IMG/VR virus record: IMGVR_UViG_3300046501_000132
Location: 106,685 to 170,684 of that record
Reading direction: 5' to 3' (one strand)
Origin: a virus
Length of the DNA: 64,000 bases
Shown in pieces: positions 1,639-36,156 of this stretch. The translations under genes and the position numbers were made by a program. The notes beneath the pieces were generated by a model. The model worked only from the letters and a program-made list of their open reading frames with translations, had not been told where the DNA came from and searched no databases. The number at the start of each line of letters is the position of its first letter. The stretch's first letter is position 1.

Positions 1639-2865
1639 ATGAAAATTGCGGCTATCTATTGGCCCACTTCCTCGGTTGGAGGAATTAACTCGGTGCTCGT
1701 CGCTCTCCGGAAGGAAGCAGAGGCCAACGGAGACACTTTTGATGTGATCCGTTGTGGGAATCTGAAGACGATCAACCCGACCAAATTCGATGAACCGCAG
1801 CTGATTCGCGGCGGCGACACGTTCATCACCGTCCATGGCGAGTGCTCTCACCACCCGGACAAAGTTCAAGGCACGGTCAAGTTCTTGGAAGAGAACTATG
1901 ACGCGCTATACTTCGCATACATCTGTCCTCATGCCAATAAGGCTTATGGGGATGATCCGGTATTCTTGCCGATCTATACTGACACCAAACTCCCGAAGGT
2001 CGCATTCATCACGGATGCTTACTGGGACACATACAAAGACTGGGGCCTGATGTGCCTCCCTCACGTCAAGAAGACGTTGGTGACTCAACCCGCCTACGCG
2101 GAGCCGCTTCTGAAGTATGGACTGCCGGTTCAAGCAATTGATGCGCCGATCTTTCCTCAAGACGTAAGTCACATCAAGCGTTCGGAAGAACCGCTGGTGG
2201 TCTGGACTTCCCAATGGAAGAACATCAAGGGAATTACCAAGCTGATGCCGGTAATTCCCGAGATCACCAAGGTCGCCAAGATGGATATGTTCTCCAATGG
2301 TATCCTGTATTACCAGATGCGAGAAACCGATGAGTGGAAGGCGGCAATCGGTCGAGATCACTTCAAGGGATTCGATGGTCAAGGTGAAGCAGATTTCTTT
2401 GGCTATGTTCCCCTGGAGCAAATTCCTGAGATTCTGAAGCACTCGTGGTTCATGATTGACCTTCAGGGAATCGGCAATCCGAAATTCAAGGCATATACGC
2501 AAGGTGCGTATAATATCACGACAATCGAAGCGCTGTTGTATGGCTCGTGCCCGATCCTAGCCGATCAAGCCAAGCGTTCGATCATCCCTAATGAATTCTT
2601 CCTGACCGTTGAAGACGCGCGTCAGATTCCGGACCTGATCAAGAATAATCTGAAGTTCGCTCGCGATCAAGATCGTATCGCCGCTGCGCGGGAATGGGTT
2701 CTGGAACGCCATTCGTCCAGCAATATGTATAAGCAAGTGATCGATGCTCTGAACGGGCCGGACCCAGAACCGTTCGATCCAAGCAAGATCGTAGAAGCCG
2801 CGCCTGAACCGGAAAAGAAGCCGGAACCTGCCGCTGCTATGGATATGTTCAATATGTTTGTGTGA
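1639..2865 (+). CDS. GT-B glycosyltransferase (GT4-like), 408 aa
   Basis: Start taken at ATG 1639 (MKIAAIYWPTSSVGG), with GGAGAA upstream; the longer open frame from 1588 crosses the promoter. The N-terminal Rossmann-like half has the nucleotide-sugar glycosyltransferase pattern. The C-terminal half (about 200-350) contains WTSQWKNIKGI, like the start of the donor domain, and ITTIEALLYGSCPIL, the Glu-containing donor-binding motif. The last 40 residues are Pro/Glu-rich and probably disordered. First gene of an operon with a PIG-L deacetylase and a second glycosyltransferase. Acceptor unknown: modified DNA base, virion protein or host glycan are all possible. Confidence 0.82.
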   Translation: MKIAAIYWPTSSVGGINSVLVALRKEAEANGDTFDVIRCGNLKTINPTKFDEPQLIRGGDTFITVHGECSHHPDKVQGTVKFLEENYDALYFAYICPHANKAYGDDPVFLPIYTDTKLPKVAFITDAYWDTYKDWGLMCLPHVKKTLVTQPAYAEPLLKYGLPVQAIDAPIFPQDVSHIKRSEEPLVVWTSQWKNIKGITKLMPVIPEITKVAKMDMFSNGILYYQMRETDEWKAAIGRDHFKGFDGQGEADFFGYVPLEQIPEILKHSWFMIDLQGIGNPKFKAYTQGAYNITTIEALLYGSCPILADQAKRSIIPNEFFLTVEDARQIPDLIKNNLKFARDQDRIAAAREWVLERHSSSNMYKQVIDALNGPDPEPFDPSKIVEAAPEPEKKPEPAAAMDMFNMFV

Positions 2866-2868
2866 TCT

Positions 2869-3432
2869 ATGACGACATTTTACGTGCTGGAAGCCCACAT
2901 TGACGATTCGTTCTTGTCGATGCACCGTCATATGACGGATTGGATCAAACAGGGCCATACCGTGATCATCGGTTCAGTCTACACCGGAGGTCGGAAACGC
3001 GACACGGAAATCAAGGCTTACGCTGAGCTCATAGGAGCCTCTACGCACTGCTATTTCCATGACCCTGAGCTAGACCCAGACCTGGGTGAGTTCACGCTCC
3101 CTAGCTCATTTATGCTGGGCCGTGAAGCACTCACAATCGTATGTCCTATCGCTATCCAGAACCACCAGCACGTGAAGCTGAGGGAATGGGTGGAGAAGTC
3201 GGTCAAGCCCGATCTGTATTACTTGGACATTCCGTACTACACCAAGGCCAAGAACGAAGACGAGGTCAACGAGAAGCTGAAAGGCTTCAAGATTGTGAGT
3301 GTGAAGAAGCCAACTCACATGAAGGGCAAGGACAAGTACTGGAAGTGCTTCAAAGGACAATCCAAGTATTTCTTCTATAACCCGCCTGAGAGTTGGGTTC
3401 AGATTCCGGAAATCCTATTGGAGAAAGAATGA
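2869..3432 (+). CDS. PIG-L/LmbE family sugar N-deacetylase-like protein, 187 aa
   Basis: The N terminus reads FYVLEAHIDDSFLSMHRHM, matching the metal-binding AHPDDE-type motif of PIG-L/LmbE zinc deacetylases (here HIDD), followed by a V-x-x-Y/F-T-G strand. A second histidine-containing stretch (IAIQNHQHVKLREW, about 105-118) fits the other metal ligands. Family members remove the N-acetyl group from GlcNAc-type sugars. The gene lies 3 bp after one glycosyltransferase and overlaps the next by 4 bp, so its substrate is probably the sugar those enzymes handle. The canonical Glu of the motif is replaced by Ser, so activity should be tested. Confidence 0.75.
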   Translation: MTTFYVLEAHIDDSFLSMHRHMTDWIKQGHTVIIGSVYTGGRKRDTEIKAYAELIGASTHCYFHDPELDPDLGEFTLPSSFMLGREALTIVCPIAIQNHQHVKLREWVEKSVKPDLYYLDIPYYTKAKNEDEVNEKLKGFKIVSVKKPTHMKGKDKYWKCFKGQSKYFFYNPPESWVQIPEILLEKE

Positions 3433-4664
3433 AGATCATTATCTATGATAACTTCGTTTGCTCTCCGATGGAAGGTCGTGGTGCGGCGGGTGGTCTGGAG
3501 AAGGTGGCGAAGGATGATGCTTTCAATCTGACTCGCGCTGGTCATGATGTGATCTTCTTGTATGCGGGACATCAATGCAAGTATGACTTCCCGTTCCGGA
3601 CGATGCAAGTTCACGAGAAGTCGAAAGAAGACGTCATCGAGCAAGACGGTAGCATCGTCGCTTGGCAGAATCGGGTCGTGGCGAATGTGATCAACATTAT
3701 CAAGCGTGAAGAGCCTGATATCATGTTGTATCATAGTCATACGACTTCCCCGGCCAAGAAGATCATCAAGGAAACTGGAATCCCGACGCTGATGACGATT
3801 CACGGGTTCCTGACGGGCAATCTGTTTATCGACACCGGGCGGATCACCGCCTATCGTGAACTTTGTGAAATGGGCGCGTATCTGGTCACCAATACAGAAG
3901 CCACCGGAAAGCGCATCTTCAAGCAGGCAAAGTTGGTTCGTGATCGCTACGTCAAGAACGAGCAGGATTATTGGAACTTCGTCCGAATCATTGATGATCA
4001 GCTTCCGTTCTATCATGACTTCCACCGGACATTCATGTTCGTGGAAGAAGAATTTGAGATCAAGGAATCGAGCGGGCGGGCGATCACCGCATCCCGCGCC
4101 GATCCTCTGAAGCTGACCCACAAGTTCAAGGACATCAAGCACCCGCTGGACATCTTCTGGAAGTCGTTCCCATCGACAAGTAAGACTTATCCCAAGTGGC
4201 TTGAAACCAACCGTGGATACTTCGGGGATAATCCTGATATCAAGTTCTATTGGAATTGGAAGTATAGCGGTATCATGGATACGTTCTCTCAAGCCAAGGC
4301 GTGTCTGATTACCTGGCCGGATGAGACTTTCGGATTGACTGCATTCGAAGCCGCACAAAAGGGCGTGCCGTCGATCTGTATGCATAAGGGTGAACTCAGT
4401 TGTACGGCTGAGTTCCTGTCGCGTGTTAGCAAGCCAGTTCTCATCGACTATCGGGACAAGAACTTCGTCGATCAAGTTGTAGATGCGCTCAATAATATCG
4501 ATGATAGTCTTCATACTCGTCAGGCTTTCGCAGAGGACTTCCGTACATACTTCAGCTATACTAGCTGGGTGAATGAGAAAGAGGAATTTATGCGCAGAGC
4601 GATCAATATGATGAAAGAGGTTGGTCGGCCTGAACCGAGTTCCCTGTTTAACGATTGGAGCTGA
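3429..4664 (+). CDS. GT-B glycosyltransferase family 4, 411 aa
   Basis: ATG at 3429 overlaps the upstream stop (ATGA) and has GGAGAAAG upstream. Shows the GT4 signatures: N-terminal GGLEKVAKDDAFNLTRAGHD (the GGLE-R-V/GH-V pattern) and C-terminal PDETFGLTAFEAAQKGVPS, with the conserved E-x7-E donor motif. Soluble. The operon position with a second GT and a PIG-L deacetylase indicates a short glycan-building pathway. Confidence 0.88.
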   Translation: MKIIIYDNFVCSPMEGRGAAGGLEKVAKDDAFNLTRAGHDVIFLYAGHQCKYDFPFRTMQVHEKSKEDVIEQDGSIVAWQNRVVANVINIIKREEPDIMLYHSHTTSPAKKIIKETGIPTLMTIHGFLTGNLFIDTGRITAYRELCEMGAYLVTNTEATGKRIFKQAKLVRDRYVKNEQDYWNFVRIIDDQLPFYHDFHRTFMFVEEEFEIKESSGRAITASRADPLKLTHKFKDIKHPLDIFWKSFPSTSKTYPKWLETNRGYFGDNPDIKFYWNWKYSGIMDTFSQAKACLITWPDETFGLTAFEAAQKGVPSICMHKGELSCTAEFLSRVSKPVLIDYRDKNFVDQVVDALNNIDDSLHTRQAFAEDFRTYFSYTSWVNEKEEFMRRAINMMKEVGRPEPSSLFNDWS

Positions 4665-4665
4665 T

Positions 4666-5109
4666 GTGAGTGTTCTGAATGCAGTGAAGCGCGCCTATGG
4701 GGTCATGGAACAACGTGGGTGGGATACGGTCTATTGGGCTGTCGATCTCCACGGTGTATGTCTGGAATCCAACTACAAGCAGGGTGGTTACCAGTGGATC
4801 AACCAGACCGCGAAAGAGACGCTTCAGTTGATTTCGATGCTCCCCGAGAGCAAGATCATCCTCTGGTCGTCGGTACACGCCAATGAACAATACGATATTA
4901 TCAAGTTCTTTCGGGATGCAGATATTGCAGTTTTCGATTTCAATCAAAACCGATTCGAGAAAAGCAATCACTGTTCCAACTTCGATGAGAAGTTCTACTT
5001 CAGCGTTTTGCTGGATGATAAGGCTGGATTTGATCCGAAAACAGATTGGGCTGAGATTAACACGTATTTGACGTTGCAAGCGTATGGAAGAGGGTTGTTC
5101 AATGAATGA
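4666..5109 (+). CDS. HAD-like hydrolase, 147 aa
   Basis: GTG start at 4666, preceded by GGAGCTGAT at the end of the glycosyltransferase gene. Motif I appears as AVDLHGV (residues about 25-31), motif II as IILWSSVH and a late acidic LLDDKAGFDP motif, the HAD phosphatase layout in a short cap-less form. Motif I has DLH rather than DxD, so it may not be a classical phosphatase. Likely acts on a sugar phosphate or nucleotide, given its operon. Confidence 0.65.
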   Translation: MSVLNAVKRAYGVMEQRGWDTVYWAVDLHGVCLESNYKQGGYQWINQTAKETLQLISMLPESKIILWSSVHANEQYDIIKFFRDADIAVFDFNQNRFEKSNHCSNFDEKFYFSVLLDDKAGFDPKTDWAEINTYLTLQAYGRGLFNE

Positions 5110-5278
5110 ACATGAAGAAGAACTGAAGAAGCAACGCGAGTCGGTGGGTGAGATCATTGCCGACATCGTAGAAGGTGCGGTTGAAGTAGCAGGCGACGTG
5201 ATCGGTGGTTTCATCGAAGGCGTTGGTAATGTATGCGGCGCCATTTCTGAAGCCGCAAGTGAATGTACTTTGGACTAA
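5102..5278 (+). CDS. Small Gly/Ala/Val-rich protein, 58 aa
   Basis: ATG at 5102 overlaps the HAD gene end. Charged N terminus (NEHEEELKKQRE), then a region with regularly spaced Gly and Val/Ile (GEIIADIVEGAVEVAGDVIG) that could form an amphipathic or membrane-associated helix pair. Unknown function. Confidence 0.6.
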   Translation: MNEHEEELKKQRESVGEIIADIVEGAVEVAGDVIGGFIEGVGNVCGAISEAASECTLD

Positions 5279-5289
5279 GGAGTCAATCA

Positions 5290-5550
5290 ATGAGTATGAG
5301 TCAGTACGCGACAAAGGAAGAATACCAAGCGTCGCAAAACAATAAGCCGGTGGTGCATTTTCTCAATGAGGCCACTTTCGAAGACAACTGGATGGGAACC
5401 GGCTGTAAGGTTGCCCATTGTGTGGTGATCGATCACCCGCGTCTTGGTCAGAGTGATGTACGCACGAGTGCAGTCATCAAGATCAATGAGGATGGTTCGT
5501 TCGAAACTCGCAATAGCATCTACCAACCGATTCAACAACTGAACGGTTAA
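5290..5550 (+). CDS. Hypothetical protein, 86 aa
   Basis: Strong SD AAGGAG seven bases upstream of ATG 5290 (MSMSQYATKEEYQA). Soluble and beta-rich; the pattern GTGCKVAHCVVIDHPRLGQS is not from a family I can name. Its TAA overlaps the next ATG. Confidence 0.7.
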   Translation: MSMSQYATKEEYQASQNNKPVVHFLNEATFEDNWMGTGCKVAHCVVIDHPRLGQSDVRTSAVIKINEDGSFETRNSIYQPIQQLNG

Positions 5551-6050
5551 TGGCTGGGCGGGTAGTTAAACCGCCAGTCAGACGAGAAAACGCTTACACA
5601 GAGGTGAGCGTTTTTCTTGCTGGCAGCATCGAAATGGGCAAGGCGGTCGATTGGCAGTACGCACTAGGCGAATCTCTGACCTACTTCCACGAAGTGGGTA
5701 ATATATACAATCCAAGGCGTGACGACTGGGACTCCAGTTGGGAACAGCGCAAGGATAATCCTCAGTTCAACGAACAAGTCACTTGGGAGTTGGATCATAT
5801 TGAGGATGCAGACATCGTATTCTTCAACTTTATCCCCGATACGCAATCCCCCATCACTCTCCTAGAGCTGGGATTTGCGCTGGGTCAGATGAAGGAAGTC
5901 ATCGTTTGTTGTCCTCCAGGCTTCTGGCGTAAGGGAAATATCGACATCCTTTGTGATCGTGAGTCGGTGACAGTTTATGATGACTACACGCAGGCAATCG
6001 CTGCACTATATAAGAGGATACACGGAATCTATGAGGAAATGAAACAATGA
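5550..6050 (+). CDS. Nucleoside 2-deoxyribosyltransferase-like protein, 166 aa
   Basis: Contains the family hallmarks: VFLAGSIEMGKAVDWQ near residue 21, IYNPRRDDWDSSW near 50, and a C-terminal DADIVFFNFIPDTQSPITLLELGFALG block with the conserved acidic pocket and the E-x-G-x-A/F substrate loop. Members exchange bases on deoxynucleosides or cleave N-glycosidic bonds of dNMPs. TAATG start. Together with the deaminase-like gene downstream it suggests salvage or remodelling of deoxynucleotides. Confidence 0.78.
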   Translation: MAGRVVKPPVRRENAYTEVSVFLAGSIEMGKAVDWQYALGESLTYFHEVGNIYNPRRDDWDSSWEQRKDNPQFNEQVTWELDHIEDADIVFFNFIPDTQSPITLLELGFALGQMKEVIVCCPPGFWRKGNIDILCDRESVTVYDDYTQAIAALYKRIHGIYEEMKQ

Positions 6051-6289
6051 ATATTGAAGTGCAAATCGCATTGCTAGAAAAACGCAAGCGTGAAATCGAA
6101 CTTGATTATGAGGCTGATGATAATCGCCTCCAAGGACTTCTGGCTGAAGGTCGGAAGATTGCCAAGATTGTAGACGCCAAGAAAGAAAAAGCCCAACATC
6201 TGGAATTCGCCATCACCAATCTTCGCGCTCTGCATGACATTGAGGTTGAGGAAGCGGTCCCTGAGGAAGACCCTTGGGGTGATGATTGA
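6047..6289 (+). CDS. Small coiled-coil protein, 80 aa
   Basis: ATGA overlap with the preceding gene. Heptad-like, strongly charged helix over residues 5-60 (LLEKRKREIELDYEADD) and an acidic tail. Function unknown. Confidence 0.65.
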   Translation: MNIEVQIALLEKRKREIELDYEADDNRLQGLLAEGRKIAKIVDAKKEKAQHLEFAITNLRALHDIEVEEAVPEEDPWGDD

Positions 6290-6653
6290 CATCACCAAGT
6301 TTCATAATCGGGCCAAACTGATATTCGACCGAGAGAATCTAGGCAACTACAAGCAGCGCGTAGTTGCTTTTGTCTTAGATTCCAAAGGTCGGATACTCAC
6401 AGAAGGATGGAATTCTTATACCAAGACGCATCCAGTCCAACAACAAGCTGCCTTGGCTCATGACGAGAAGAAGTGTTTTCTCCACGCTGAGATCCACGCT
6501 CTCACTCGACTGCGGTATAAGCAGTTGTCTAAGCAAGAAACAATTGTGGTGCTTCGGATGGACGTTAGTAAACGCTTACTTCCGGGCGCGCCCTGTAGCA
6601 TTTGTCAAGATGTTATCTCTCAGTTCGGGATCACGAACATCGTGCATTCCTAA
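6282..6653 (+). CDS. Cytidine/deoxycytidylate deaminase-like protein, 123 aa
   Basis: ATG at 6282 inside the end of the previous gene, with GGGGTGATG upstream. Contains the zinc deaminase signature: CFLHAEIHAL (His and catalytic Glu) near residue 63 and PGAPCSICQD (PCxxC) near 100. Shorter than typical dCMP deaminases and without an obvious allosteric zinc site. T4-like phages use dCMP deaminase to balance pyrimidine pools. Confidence 0.75.
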   Translation: MIDITKFHNRAKLIFDRENLGNYKQRVVAFVLDSKGRILTEGWNSYTKTHPVQQQAALAHDEKKCFLHAEIHALTRLRYKQLSKQETIVVLRMDVSKRLLPGAPCSICQDVISQFGITNIVHS

Positions 6654-6677: not shown

Positions 6678-6926
6678 ATGAAGACCGTCCAAGAATACCT
6701 AGAACTACTTGAAGTCAACCGGATCATTCAAGGTCTATCCAAGCGCAGTGGGAAGCCCGCCGACCATATCAATTCGATTTGGAAGGATACCGAGAAGGAA
6801 GTGCTGACTAAGCACAAATTCGGAGTTACGGATAAGTACAAAGAGATCGGTAAGCTAGTCCGTTCCAAGCTGGGCGTTGAGCCAAGCGATAAGGAAAAGG
6901 AAGACGAGGCAGATACAAAGAAGTAA
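6678..6926 (+). CDS. Hypothetical protein, 82 aa
   Basis: ATG with GGGAGAA upstream. Lys-rich helical protein with a Glu/Lys-rich tail. Last gene before a terminator. Unrecognised. Confidence 0.65.
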   Translation: MKTVQEYLELLEVNRIIQGLSKRSGKPADHINSIWKDTEKEVLTKHKFGVTDKYKEIGKLVRSKLGVEPSDKEKEDEADTKK

Positions 6927-6928
6927 TC

Positions 6929-6963
6929 ATAAAGAGTCCATATTTCTATGGACTCTTTTTCTT
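6929..6963 (+). terminator. Intrinsic terminator
   Basis: Stem AAAGAGTCCATA/TATGGACTCTTT with a four-base loop and T-run. Confidence 0.85.
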
Positions 6964-33570: not shown

Positions 33571-34161
33571 TTAATTCAGGGTCAGCGGAGTTTCCTTGGA
33601 CTTATCATAAGTCCCAGCTTGTTGTCCGCCTTCAACACGCTTTTGATTCTGAGCATTCTTGAGATAGTATGCCTTGGTGATATCGCCTTCATTCAGTCCG
33701 ATCAGAACCGCGCCAGTCTCAATCAGATTGAGTAGGCTAATCAGCGCCCGGAATTCATTCTCATTATAGATTGATTCGATGAAGTTGTATTGGGCCTTAG
33801 CAAAGTACAGATGTTTATCCTCATACTTCCCATACATAGTCGTTTCGACTTGTTCGTTTTTCAACAAGTCTTTGATATACGATAGATCGTTGTTCAGAAG
33901 GACAAGAAGCATCGCAAAATGCACAGCATCGATCAGTTCGAATGCCGCTTTGTCTTTGTCGATAGGGACAGCAAGCGCCTTGCCGGACCACCACTTCCAG
34001 GTCGAACGGATTTCCTCAGCGAACTCAGCAACTTCCGTTTGGAAGGCAAAGATCGCCTGTCCCTTCATCACAGTCTTACGCCATTCTGGACCGTTATACT
34101 TGATATTCAGAGCCTCTTGGGCTTCGAACATCTCAATCAGGTCCATCTTATCGAAAATCAT
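33571..34161 (-). CDS. 56: dUTPase/dCTPase (all-alpha NTP pyrophosphatase, gp56-like), 196 aa
   Basis: Helical, with the all-alpha NTPase metal-binding pattern E-x-x-E in FAFQTEVAEFAEEIRSTWKWWS and E-x-x-D in AFELIDAVHFAMLLVL, as in dimeric dUTPases and T4 gp56. In T4 the homologue destroys dCTP and dUTP so that the modified base is used and feeds the TS-like enzyme with dUMP/dCMP. ATGA overlap with the kinase gene. Confidence 0.82.
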   Translation of the reverse strand: MIFDKMDLIEMFEAQEALNIKYNGPEWRKTVMKGQAIFAFQTEVAEFAEEIRSTWKWWSGKALAVPIDKDKAAFELIDAVHFAMLLVLLNNDLSYIKDLLKNEQVETTMYGKYEDKHLYFAKAQYNFIESIYNENEFRALISLLNLIETGAVLIGLNEGDITKAYYLKNAQNQKRVEGGQQAGTYDKSKETPLTLN

Positions 34162-35042
34162 AGCGCTCCTTCTTGATGTATGAAGGAATAGAAGAAACGA
34201 TCAAACTCAGCCGTCCCATTCATTCGATTAATGAATAGTTGATCATAATCCTTGAACTCACGAACATACTGTTCGAAGTCCGAAGGGGGCAGGCCATCCC
34301 GGCTTTCACGTTCGATCTTCAGAACCGGGATACCAACGTCCTGAATGAATTCCCATTCCTGTGGAGTCCGGAAGTCCGTAATGATAAACAGCTTATCAGG
34401 ATTATAGCACTCGTCCAGAGCGTTCCAGTTGTTATCTTCGAACTTATGAACAAAGAAGTGCGGATCAACGTCACGAACCTTACCGACCGTCAACCAGATT
34501 TGGCGTGGAGTTAGGTTATTCGGGTTCTGTGGATGTACAAACGGCAAATCCTTCTGCTCCGGGGTGATATCCATCGGGAGCCAAGGGAAGATTTGAGATG
34601 CAAGACGGCGCACCTCATCCGAAAAAGAAAGGCGCACCGCGCCCCGAGTTGCTACCAGATGATCACAAAAGAAGTCCTTGCCGCTTTTGTATTCACCCAT
34701 AAATGCTACGATCATTTTGCCTCTTTTAACTTGATAACTCTCATCGTAGATCCATCGTTCCCTCAGGTTTTGCTCCTTGGTGATAAATCTACAATTTCCC
34801 ACACGATAAACGCCTTCATCCCGATACCTTCCGAGTTGGTAAGAATCGGGTTCCAATCCAATTTGGTTCGCTCGCGTCAACCCGGCATCTACAGCTAACC
34901 GGGTGTACTGCTCAAACGTCAACTCACATTGTCTCTGGAGCCTAACTGCTCGTGCCTTTAGGTTTTGCCAATTCTTTAACCAGGCACGCAGTTCGCTAGG
35001 ATCCAGTCCAATGACTTTTAGATAGTTTTCACGAGCATCCAT
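34158..35042 (-). CDS. 1: dNMP kinase (gp1-like) with N-terminal HNH-like extension, up to 294 aa
   Basis: Residues from MIVAFMGEYKSGKDFF onward (ATG 34715) form a dNMP kinase: P-loop GEYKSGKD, LTPRQIWLTVGKVRDVDPHF, and KLFIITDFRTPQEWEF. AGAGG lies just before 34715, so the kinase can start there as a 186-aa protein. The frame continues upstream without a stop into about 100 residues ending GVYRVGNCRFITKEQNLRER, the C-terminal signature of phage HNH/AP2-type proteins. Starts at ATG 35042 or TTG 35069 (GAGGTG upstream) would give a fused protein. The kinase phosphorylates dTMP, dGMP and modified pyrimidine monophosphates in T4. Confidence 0.8.
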   Translation of the reverse strand: MDARENYLKVIGLDPSELRAWLKNWQNLKARAVRLQRQCELTFEQYTRLAVDAGLTRANQIGLEPDSYQLGRYRDEGVYRVGNCRFITKEQNLRERWIYDESYQVKRGKMIVAFMGEYKSGKDFFCDHLVATRGAVRLSFSDEVRRLASQIFPWLPMDITPEQKDLPFVHPQNPNNLTPRQIWLTVGKVRDVDPHFFVHKFEDNNWNALDECYNPDKLFIITDFRTPQEWEFIQDVGIPVLKIERESRDGLPPSDFEQYVREFKDYDQLFINRMNGTAEFDRFFYSFIHQEGAL

Positions 35043-35070
35043 CAACGCCTTGACCTCAGCCCGTTTCAAC

Positions 35071-36156
35071 TTACACCTCGATGTCGAATTTGCGGAATGA
35101 AGACAACTCGATGGCTCGAACCAATTCAACCGGGGCTTCAGTCAGATCAACAACCGCACTCAACTCAACACCCCGCTTCGCGGCGATATAATGAGCAACG
35201 AGTTGTGCATACACCCACATCAGGTTATTTTCAAGCGGAACGTTGTATTCCAAGAAGGTATGACCCAGATGAGAGATAATCGTGCTCAGAATGAACTCAG
35301 GCTCATCGGTCGTGATCGCTTCGATATATTGAGCAACCAGATCGCTGAAGAAAGCCTTCCATAGTCGAATCTCAGGGCCGATTAGCGGAACATCACTCTC
35401 ATCATACGAATTCGTATAGTTGGCGGAGATTTCGGTTGCATCATCCGCTTGACCCCGCGAAAAGTCGTATAGGTGGGCATTCGTCACGTGCCAGCGATAT
35501 GGGCCCAGCTTCAGTTGAGGGCTGCTCTTCTTGATCTCGTTGTACATCAACTCGTGAAGGAACGAGAACTCAAATGGATTGATCGAGCCGGTACCAAAGA
35601 TGATGTCGCCACTTCGCTGAATCACCTTAGTACAGAATTGATCTTCGCCTTCAACGTAGAAGTTGATACCCAAGTTACAGGGTCGATCCTTACCCAGTTC
35701 TCCGAAGCCGAACCGCTCTTCAATTGCCTTGGTCGAATCCTTATGAAGATCATGAATCGTCACATACGCACGGCGGGTATATAGACTATCTCGGATGAAC
35801 AGATCGGGGATAGACACCAACTGATTCTCATCATAGAATCGCGGGCCATAGGCACCGCTCCAAGTCTCACCATCATCCGAATACTGAGGCGCACGCGGGA
35901 GGAAGAAAGACAAGTAAGGATTCACACGATCATCACCGGCCATAACCCAGAAAGTCTCCGCGATTAGAGCGAAGATATTGGATTTGCGACCTTCAAGGTG
36001 TAGATGTCGGGATCGGGGATTGCCTAGCTCAAACGTTACGTCAAAGATAGACGTGCAACCACCGTTACGGGAAGGGCGATAATGGCCCTCATTGATAATT
36101 GTATTGAATGCTTCTAGAACAACTTGTGAAACGGTCCTGCCTCTTACCAGGTGCAT
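35071..36156 (-). CDS. Thymidylate synthase-fold enzyme (TS or dNMP hydroxymethylase), 361 aa
   Basis: TS family landmarks in order: TRRAYVTIHD (S/T-R-R), RPCNLGINFYV with the catalytic Cys, VIQRSGDIIFG (Q-R-S-x-D), SINPFEFSFLHELM, and RWHVTNAHLYDFSR (D/N-x-H-x-Y). The usual His after the Cys is Asn. The residue equivalent to E. coli TS Asn177, which is Asp in dCMP hydroxymethylases, is Ile or Asn depending on one-residue alignment. Longer than TS (264 aa). Neighbours dUTPase and dNMP kinase repeat the T4 42-56-1 logic, so hydroxymethyl-pyrimidine synthesis is a serious alternative to plain TS. Confidence 0.85.
   Translation of the reverse strand: MHLVRGRTVSQVVLEAFNTIINEGHYRPSRNGGCTSIFDVTFELGNPRSRHLHLEGRKSNIFALIAETFWVMAGDDRVNPYLSFFLPRAPQYSDDGETWSGAYGPRFYDENQLVSIPDLFIRDSLYTRRAYVTIHDLHKDSTKAIEERFGFGELGKDRPCNLGINFYVEGEDQFCTKVIQRSGDIIFGTGSINPFEFSFLHELMYNEIKKSSPQLKLGPYRWHVTNAHLYDFSRGQADDATEISANYTNSYDESDVPLIGPEIRLWKAFFSDLVAQYIEAITTDEPEFILSTIISHLGHTFLEYNVPLENNLMWVYAQLVAHYIAAKRGVELSAVVDLTEAPVELVRAIELSSFRKFDIEV

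Follow-up and report, generated by a model that had tools for sequence, protein, structure and literature searches.

The window analysed here, the last 64 kb of the 170,684-base IMG/VR virus record IMGVR_UViG_3300046501_000132, carries a four-gene operon (1639-5109, plus strand) in which a homologue of the PIG-L (LmbE-type) N-deacetylases lies between two predicted glycosyltransferases, GT1 and GT2, and is followed by a gene for a HAD-like protein. The same phage encodes enzymes predicted to supply 5-hydroxymethyldeoxyuridine (hmdU). We regard it as an evenly balanced proposition that the operon glycosylates DNA on hmdU and includes a deacetylation step, giving an amine-bearing base.

A conserved, translationally coupled operon

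All four genes were found where a preliminary description of this DNA had put them, downstream of a divergent fibre-like gene (733-1503). GT1 (1639-2865, 408 amino acids) begins at ATG 1639, a start that is kept in the relative introduced below, and is separated from the PIG-L gene (2869-3432, 187 amino acids) by three bases. The PIG-L stop and the start of GT2 (3429-4664, 411 amino acids) share ATGA. The HAD-like gene (4666-5109, 147 amino acids) most likely starts at GTG 4666 rather than at 4621, judging by comparison with its counterpart in the relative. The operon is translationally coupled.

The same gene order occurs in one other IMG/VR record, IMGVR_UViG_3300046678_000067 (L001 hereafter), with protein identities of 80% for GT1 (L001 6777-7997), 89% for the PIG-L homologue and 71% for GT2. 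Synonymous sites are saturated between the two phages (proportion of synonymous differences, pS, 0.71-0.78), and the ratio of nonsynonymous to synonymous differences (pN/pS) is 0.17 for GT1, 0.10 for PIG-L, 0.27 for GT2 and 0.32 for the HAD-like gene. The operon genes are therefore under purifying selection, with the PIG-L homologue as the most conserved and constrained of the operon proteins, and the operon is real and no chance set of open reading frames. None of the INPHARED phages matched GT1 or the PIG-L homologue, even at E=1, and GT2 found three INPHARED records only, all remote. Wider searches of IMG/VR with three operon proteins returned the same relative or nothing, and a plasmid search gave no match.

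A PIG-L homologue with a variant second motif

The Pfam PIG-L family (PF02585) matches only residues 6-50 of the 2869-3432 protein, at 15.7 bits against a cut-off of 28.2 (E=0.022), and the relative's protein at E=0.041. We took the protein to resemble a bacterial PIG-L branch with the motifs PHLDDAVLS, HxDH and YEDxPY, and compared it with a subfamily profile of 76 bacterial PIG-L proteins whose members had been gathered by a DNA pattern. Alignment of the phage pair with this profile by hhalign gave 97.2% probability (E=3.4e-11) over 182 of the 187 residues, and hmmsearch against the 76 proteins gave E=1e-14 to 3e-15 for the pair. PIG-L homology is thereby established by profile comparison, and the protein is best described as a true PIG-L homologue over its full length.

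The first motif, AHIDDS (H10, D12, D13), is intact, identical in both phages and in register with PHLDDA, in which HxDD provides the metal-binding His and Asp and the catalytic Asp. A DIPYY motif at residues 120-124 likewise brings D-x-P-Y into register with the bacterial branch. The second motif is NHQH (98-101) in both phages, with H99-Q-H101 where relatives have HxDH, and is thus one residue, the Asp, shorter; in the bacterial relatives these residues are H in 74, D in 75 and H in 72 of the 76 proteins. Because HQH lacks the Asp of HxDH, we class the protein, on its aligned residues, as a PIG-L homologue with a variant site and not as a canonical member. The preliminary description had called it PIG-L-like and named a profile check of the active-site residues; homology and the first motif bear this out, while the missing Asp had been overlooked. 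Deacetylase activity of the homologue is likely, though not assured.

A profile of five phage PIG-L proteins aligned with residues 1-58 only, and the homologue belongs to the PHLDDAVLS/HxDH/YEDxPY branch. Among INPHARED phages, no match to a member of this bacterial subfamily was found. A sequence search of the PDB gave no PIG-L or glycosyltransferase match for the homologue or for GT1. AlphaFold models built from two-row alignments were poor, with a predicted local distance difference test (pLDDT) of 32 for GT1 and 56 for the PIG-L homologue, and fold searches on them were uninformative.

Glycosyltransferases and HAD-like protein

GT2 matches PF13439 at E=4.2e-8 (33.8 bits, cut-off 28.5) and reached 98.1% hhalign probability with GT4 proteins of Acinetobacter phage vB_AbaM_3098 and Rhizobium phage RHph_Y68, which clearly points to a GT4-type GT-B glycosyltransferase; its PDB sequence search returned one weak mannosyltransferase match. 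GT1 matches only PF13524, below the cut-off of 25, with 13.2 bits (E=0.09) for the whole protein and 15.5 bits (E=0.018) for its C-terminal half. From this weak match and a motif layout judged by eye, GT1 is probably a GT-B glycosyltransferase as well. Of the two GT-B enzymes described previously, GT2 is thus upheld and GT1 is plausible only. A likeness of the pair to the T4 DNA glucosyltransferases, also raised at that stage, found no support: as homologues of alpha- or beta-glucosyltransferase, GT1 and GT2 were rejected at hhalign probabilities of 0.1-1.7%, obtained with two-row query profiles only.

The HAD-like protein shows D-L-H at motif I, where HAD phosphatases have DxD, and an LLDDKAGF stretch, and it matches phrog_1238 at E=4e-4, and no Pfam match was found for it. 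The earlier HAD call is plausible on these grounds, and the assignment is weak. L001 carries the HAD-like gene as an in-frame fusion (L001:9812-10441) with a protein that is kept separate in the window (5263-5550 region). None of the four operon proteins has transmembrane-like segments, which fits a cytosolic substrate.

A T4-like genome with predicted hmdU supply

The remaining genome is T4-like, with gp20, gp23, sheath, terminase, polymerase, clamp loader and UvsW/UvsY. Its gp23, the major capsid protein, is closest to the one encoded by Delftia phage PhiW-14 (59%), followed by those of Acinetobacter, Vibrio and Ackermannviridae phages, and by its gene content and gp23 the phage is a T4-like relative of PhiW-14 and the Ackermannviridae. 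In PhiW-14, hmdU is made at the nucleotide level and converted in DNA, via a pyrophosphorylated intermediate, to alpha-putrescinylthymine (PMC5977210).

Three adjacent minus-strand genes of the window point to the same starting material. A predicted dUMP hydroxymethylase of the thymidylate synthase superfamily (35071-36156; phrog_3676, E=1e-85) has the PC catalytic motif and shows 42% identity over 99% of its length to PhiW-14 gp230 and Ackermannviridae proteins, and 52% over the N-terminal half. Beside it lie genes for a deoxynucleoside monophosphate (dNMP) kinase (34158-35129; phrog_139, E=4e-31), probably an hmdUMP kinase, and for a predicted dUTPase/NTP pyrophosphohydrolase (33571-34161; phrog_173, E=8e-24), and a PF08761 dUTPase match was found among the window proteins. 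Genes for dCMP deaminases are also present. Outside the window, at G000 77575-78639 (L006:17575-18639), an HMUDK-helical protein (PF18723, E=1e-63; phrog_2396) adjoins a pyrimidine 5'-nucleotidase-like gene. Relatives of this protein occur in 388 phage records, chiefly of Ackermannviridae types, and it is present in both operon phages.

A search for TET/JBP enzymes found none in the phage. Because the hmdU supply genes and the HMUDK-helical protein are present and TET/JBP is absent, the base is probably hmdU and not 5-hydroxymethylcytosine (hmC), and hmdU is also the more likely acceptor. This genomic setting, which points to DNA, was no part of the preliminary description. A T4-type dCMP hydroxymethylase or TET/JBP was rejected as the source of the hydroxymethyl group; here the TET/JBP search was negative, and a PF00303 (thymidylate synthase) search was negative but unreliable. 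PF00303 misses this divergent dUMP hydroxymethylase at any reported threshold, whereas phrog_3676 and tblastn recover it, so absence searches with PF00303 are blind to this branch and their negatives are not to be trusted. An IMG/VR search with the hydroxymethylase found no relative.

Kinase and amino acid transferase in related phages

Six related phages (PhiW-14, phiA8-29, nACB2, 3M, D506 and ZQ1) were compared with the two operon phages. All six have an amino acid:DNA transferase (ADDT, PF18724), and five clearly match the hmdU-DNA-kinase part of phrog_800 (E=2e-16 to 9e-71), D506 giving a weak partial match only. In contrast, neither ADDT nor a 5-hmdU DNA kinase was found in either operon phage, where the helical domain occurs alone. 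The other match to a kinase profile in the operon phages is a P-loop stretch in a 163-amino-acid kinase-like open reading frame beside RNA ligase, which we read as a polynucleotide-kinase-type gene. Operon proteins, conversely, occur in 0/6 of the related phages. The simplest reading, that a glycosylation branch replaced the kinase/amino-acid branch in this lineage, is suggestive only.

The phrog_800 family is named 'terminase small subunit' in PHROGs, yet the kinase-like PhiW-14 gp37 and HMUDK-helical proteins match it (e.g. L011:31347-32132, L154:1-495), and it is probably an hmdU DNA kinase family under a wrong name, which several phages in GenBank have inherited, e.g. Serratia phage 3M at gp153.

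Neighbouring genes

The transcription unit probably extends to about position 6926, taking in plus-strand genes for a nucleoside 2-deoxyribosyltransferase-like protein (5550-6050; PF15891, E=2.7e-33) and a dCMP/cytidine deaminase-like protein (6234-6653; PF00383, E=1e-9; E=1e-11 for its counterpart in L001). Its putative end is a possible plus-strand terminator (6931-6958), a 12-pair stem followed by a T-rich tail; terminator-like sites around the operon are no commoner than the shuffled expectation. The deoxyribosyltransferase-like protein, here in an hmdU-type phage and not seen in L001, could act on modified nucleotides.

Elsewhere in the window (12000-36156, minus strand) lie tellurite-resistance-type genes with Pfam matches to TerD, TerC, TelA, vWA-TerF-like and DUF475. 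An NAD-related set comprises NAMPT/nicotinate phosphoribosyltransferase, NUDIX and Macro proteins (G000 40001-80000) and a NADAR protein in the window (36756-63517).

A possible route to an amino-sugar on DNA, and its rivals

In the pathway that we propose, the dUMP hydroxymethylase, dNMP kinase and dUTPase, whose genes are present and whose activities are predicted from their homologues, would supply hmdUTP. After replication, one glycosyltransferase would move an N-acetylhexosamine from a host UDP-sugar onto the hydroxymethyl group of hmdU; the PIG-L homologue, if active on this substrate and at this point, would strip the acetyl group to leave a free amine; and the second glycosyltransferase might add a further sugar, either ahead of this deacetylation or following it. 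The outcome would be a thymine analogue bearing an amino-sugar, expected to withstand nucleases and, as putrescinylthymine does, to offset part of the DNA charge. In its specific form, this proposal says that part of the thymine is replaced by an amino-sugar (glucosaminyl-type, perhaps a disaccharide) O-linked to hmdU through transfer and PIG-L deacetylation on DNA, as a second, independent route to amine-bearing thymine that replaces the kinase/amino-acid route within one lineage; we put this forward tentatively and with some doubt. The earlier suggestion that a sugar of N-acetylglucosamine (GlcNAc) type is attached and then deacetylated agrees with both the gene families and the setting in the genome, with target, sugar and activity as the conjectural part, and the observation of the operon is confirmed while its interpretation is partly supported.

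Several points weigh against the proposal. The HQH second motif means that PIG-L activity could be altered or lost, and the identity of GT1 as a glycosyltransferase is not firm. Roughly 30 kb separates the operon from the hydroxymethylase genes, leaving no direct linkage to DNA, and the relative L001, a 117 kb fragment, shows no hydroxymethylase. The HMUDK-helical protein is kept without its usual kinase and ADDT partners. Finally, the presence/absence contrast sets two sister phages, that is one event, against six relatives, and both operon-phage records are possibly incomplete, which leaves the absence of kinase and transferase unproven.

The operon might instead glycosylate a virion protein or a host surface glycan, to mask receptors, exclude superinfecting phages or shield against immunity, while deacetylation would adjust the charge and the hmdU genes would be an unrelated trait of the lineage. 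GT4 and PIG-L enzymes are common in polysaccharide pathways, the divergent fibre/baseplate-like gene at 733-1503 (phrog_25346 and phrog_967 matches) adjoins the operon, and virion glycosylation is known in phages (Freeman et al. 2023, as cited in PMC12619734). We nevertheless consider such a target rather unlikely, as the operon proteins have no membrane segments, genes for a lipid carrier, a flippase or sugar nucleotides are not seen among the Pfam matches, the transcription unit runs on into nucleotide-metabolism genes, and ADDT and the kinase are missing only in the operon-bearing phages. In a variant closer to our proposal, DNA would be glycosylated and the PIG-L homologue would not deacetylate it, either because its activity was lost or changed at HQH or because it acts on the sugar nucleotide before transfer. 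The Asp of HxDH, conserved in 75/76 relatives, is missing in both phages and the Pfam score falls below the cut-off; against this, its 89% identity, pN/pS of 0.10 and intact base and metal residues of motif 1 argue for strong functional constraint on the most conserved operon protein, and we judge this variant improbable. It is similarly improbable, in our estimate, that the product of the GT/PIG-L pair is a small soluble amino-glycoside, for instance a metabolite akin to bacillithiol or mycothiol, or else a small anti-defence molecule. A GT4 enzyme followed by PIG-L is the chemistry of BshA/BshB and MshA/MshB, which this reading matches. Some phage PIG-L genes are annotated BshB1, and a DLP3 glycosyltransferase is annotated as the malate synthase (PMC7326821). 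However, no BshC/MshC-type ligase was noticed, there are two glycosyltransferases and not one, and the homologue falls in a PIG-L branch that profiles built from other PIG-L proteins of phages do not recognise past residue 58.

If glycosylation and deacetylation on hmdU are borne out, an amino-sugar would join the known decorations of DNA bases, there would be two unrelated chemistries by which phages arrive at amine-bearing thymine, and a deacetylase would work on DNA-linked sugars. The charge of the proposed amine may be likened to that of putrescinylthymine, 5-NedU and 5-NeOmdU (PMC6449724). Free base amines influence DNA charge, melting and perhaps packaging; when putrescinylthymine is acetylated, the melting temperature drops to the value expected of unmodified DNA (PMC5977210). 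Amine-bearing bases may also escape restriction and modification-dependent nucleases.

Comparison with known systems

The preliminary description knew of no such decoration, which is too strong as regards gene content, since other phages have TET/JBP-GT-PIG-L trios or GT-GT-PIG-L sets. Our literature search, with subscription papers outside its scope, found no paper tying PIG-L to phage DNA modification, so that prior work elsewhere may exist. Pyle et al., in 2024, reportedly described N-acetylhexosamines on phage 5-hydroxymethylcytosine (as cited in PMC12619734).

Post-replicative GT-B glycosylation of a hydroxylated pyrimidine in a T4-like phage, predicted here from gene content, recalls the glycosylation of hmC or hydroxycytosine (hC) in T4 and RB69 by alpha- and beta-glucosyltransferases and arabinosyltransferases. 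There is no detectable homology (T4 alpha- and beta-enzymes compared only), the pyrimidine here is probably uracil-derived, and a deacetylase is added. The pairs BshA/BshB, MshA/MshB and PIG-A/PIG-L are alike in coupling GT4-type GlcNAc transfer to a PIG-L deacetylase but differ in their acceptors, malate, inositol and phosphatidylinositol, and involve neither phage nor DNA.

With PhiW-14, M6 and ViI, which hypermodify thymidine, the operon phage has in common the dUMP hydroxymethylase, the dNMP kinase, the HMUDK-helical protein and a T4-like backbone, and the predicted end product likewise has a free amine; those phages use an hmdU DNA kinase and ADDT, which were not found in the operon phages, whereas here there are two glycosyltransferases and a PIG-L homologue.

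Closer in gene content are clusters in actinophages. Arthrobacter phage Altadena has overlapping TET/JBP, glycosyltransferase and PIG-L genes in that order, and Mycobacterium Acadianvirus has a Tet_JBP-matching gene (annotated DpdA-like), a glycosyltransferase and PIG-L, with Tet_JBP matches below the Pfam cut-off in both. In Mycobacterium phage PRodriguez (L025:813-1691), a 'DpdA-like tRNA-guanine transglycosylase' just before a glycosyltransferase and PIG-L matches Tet_JBP at E=2e-6, below the cut-off, and its annotation is possibly wrong. The Altadena and Acadianvirus clusters share with the present phage a maker of 5-hydroxymethyl-pyrimidine, a glycosyltransferase, PIG-L and overlapping genes. 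They differ in making the hydroxymethyl group on DNA by a dioxygenase and not at the nucleotide level by a dUMP hydroxymethylase, in having one short glycosyltransferase (about 245-252 amino acids) against two of about 410, and in the branch to which their PIG-L belongs. Acinetobacter phage vB_AbaM_3098 encodes two GT4 proteins back to back, one of them the best phage match of GT2, and a PIG-L gene 0.9 kb on, all within 4 kb; its PIG-L is canonical (HQDH), and its genome has no phrog_3676 hydroxymethylase or HMUDK_hel. Judged by gene content, the placement of glycosyltransferase and PIG-L genes beside makers of 5-hydroxymethyl-pyrimidines arose more than once, a recurrence that strengthens the case for DNA as the target and lowers its novelty.

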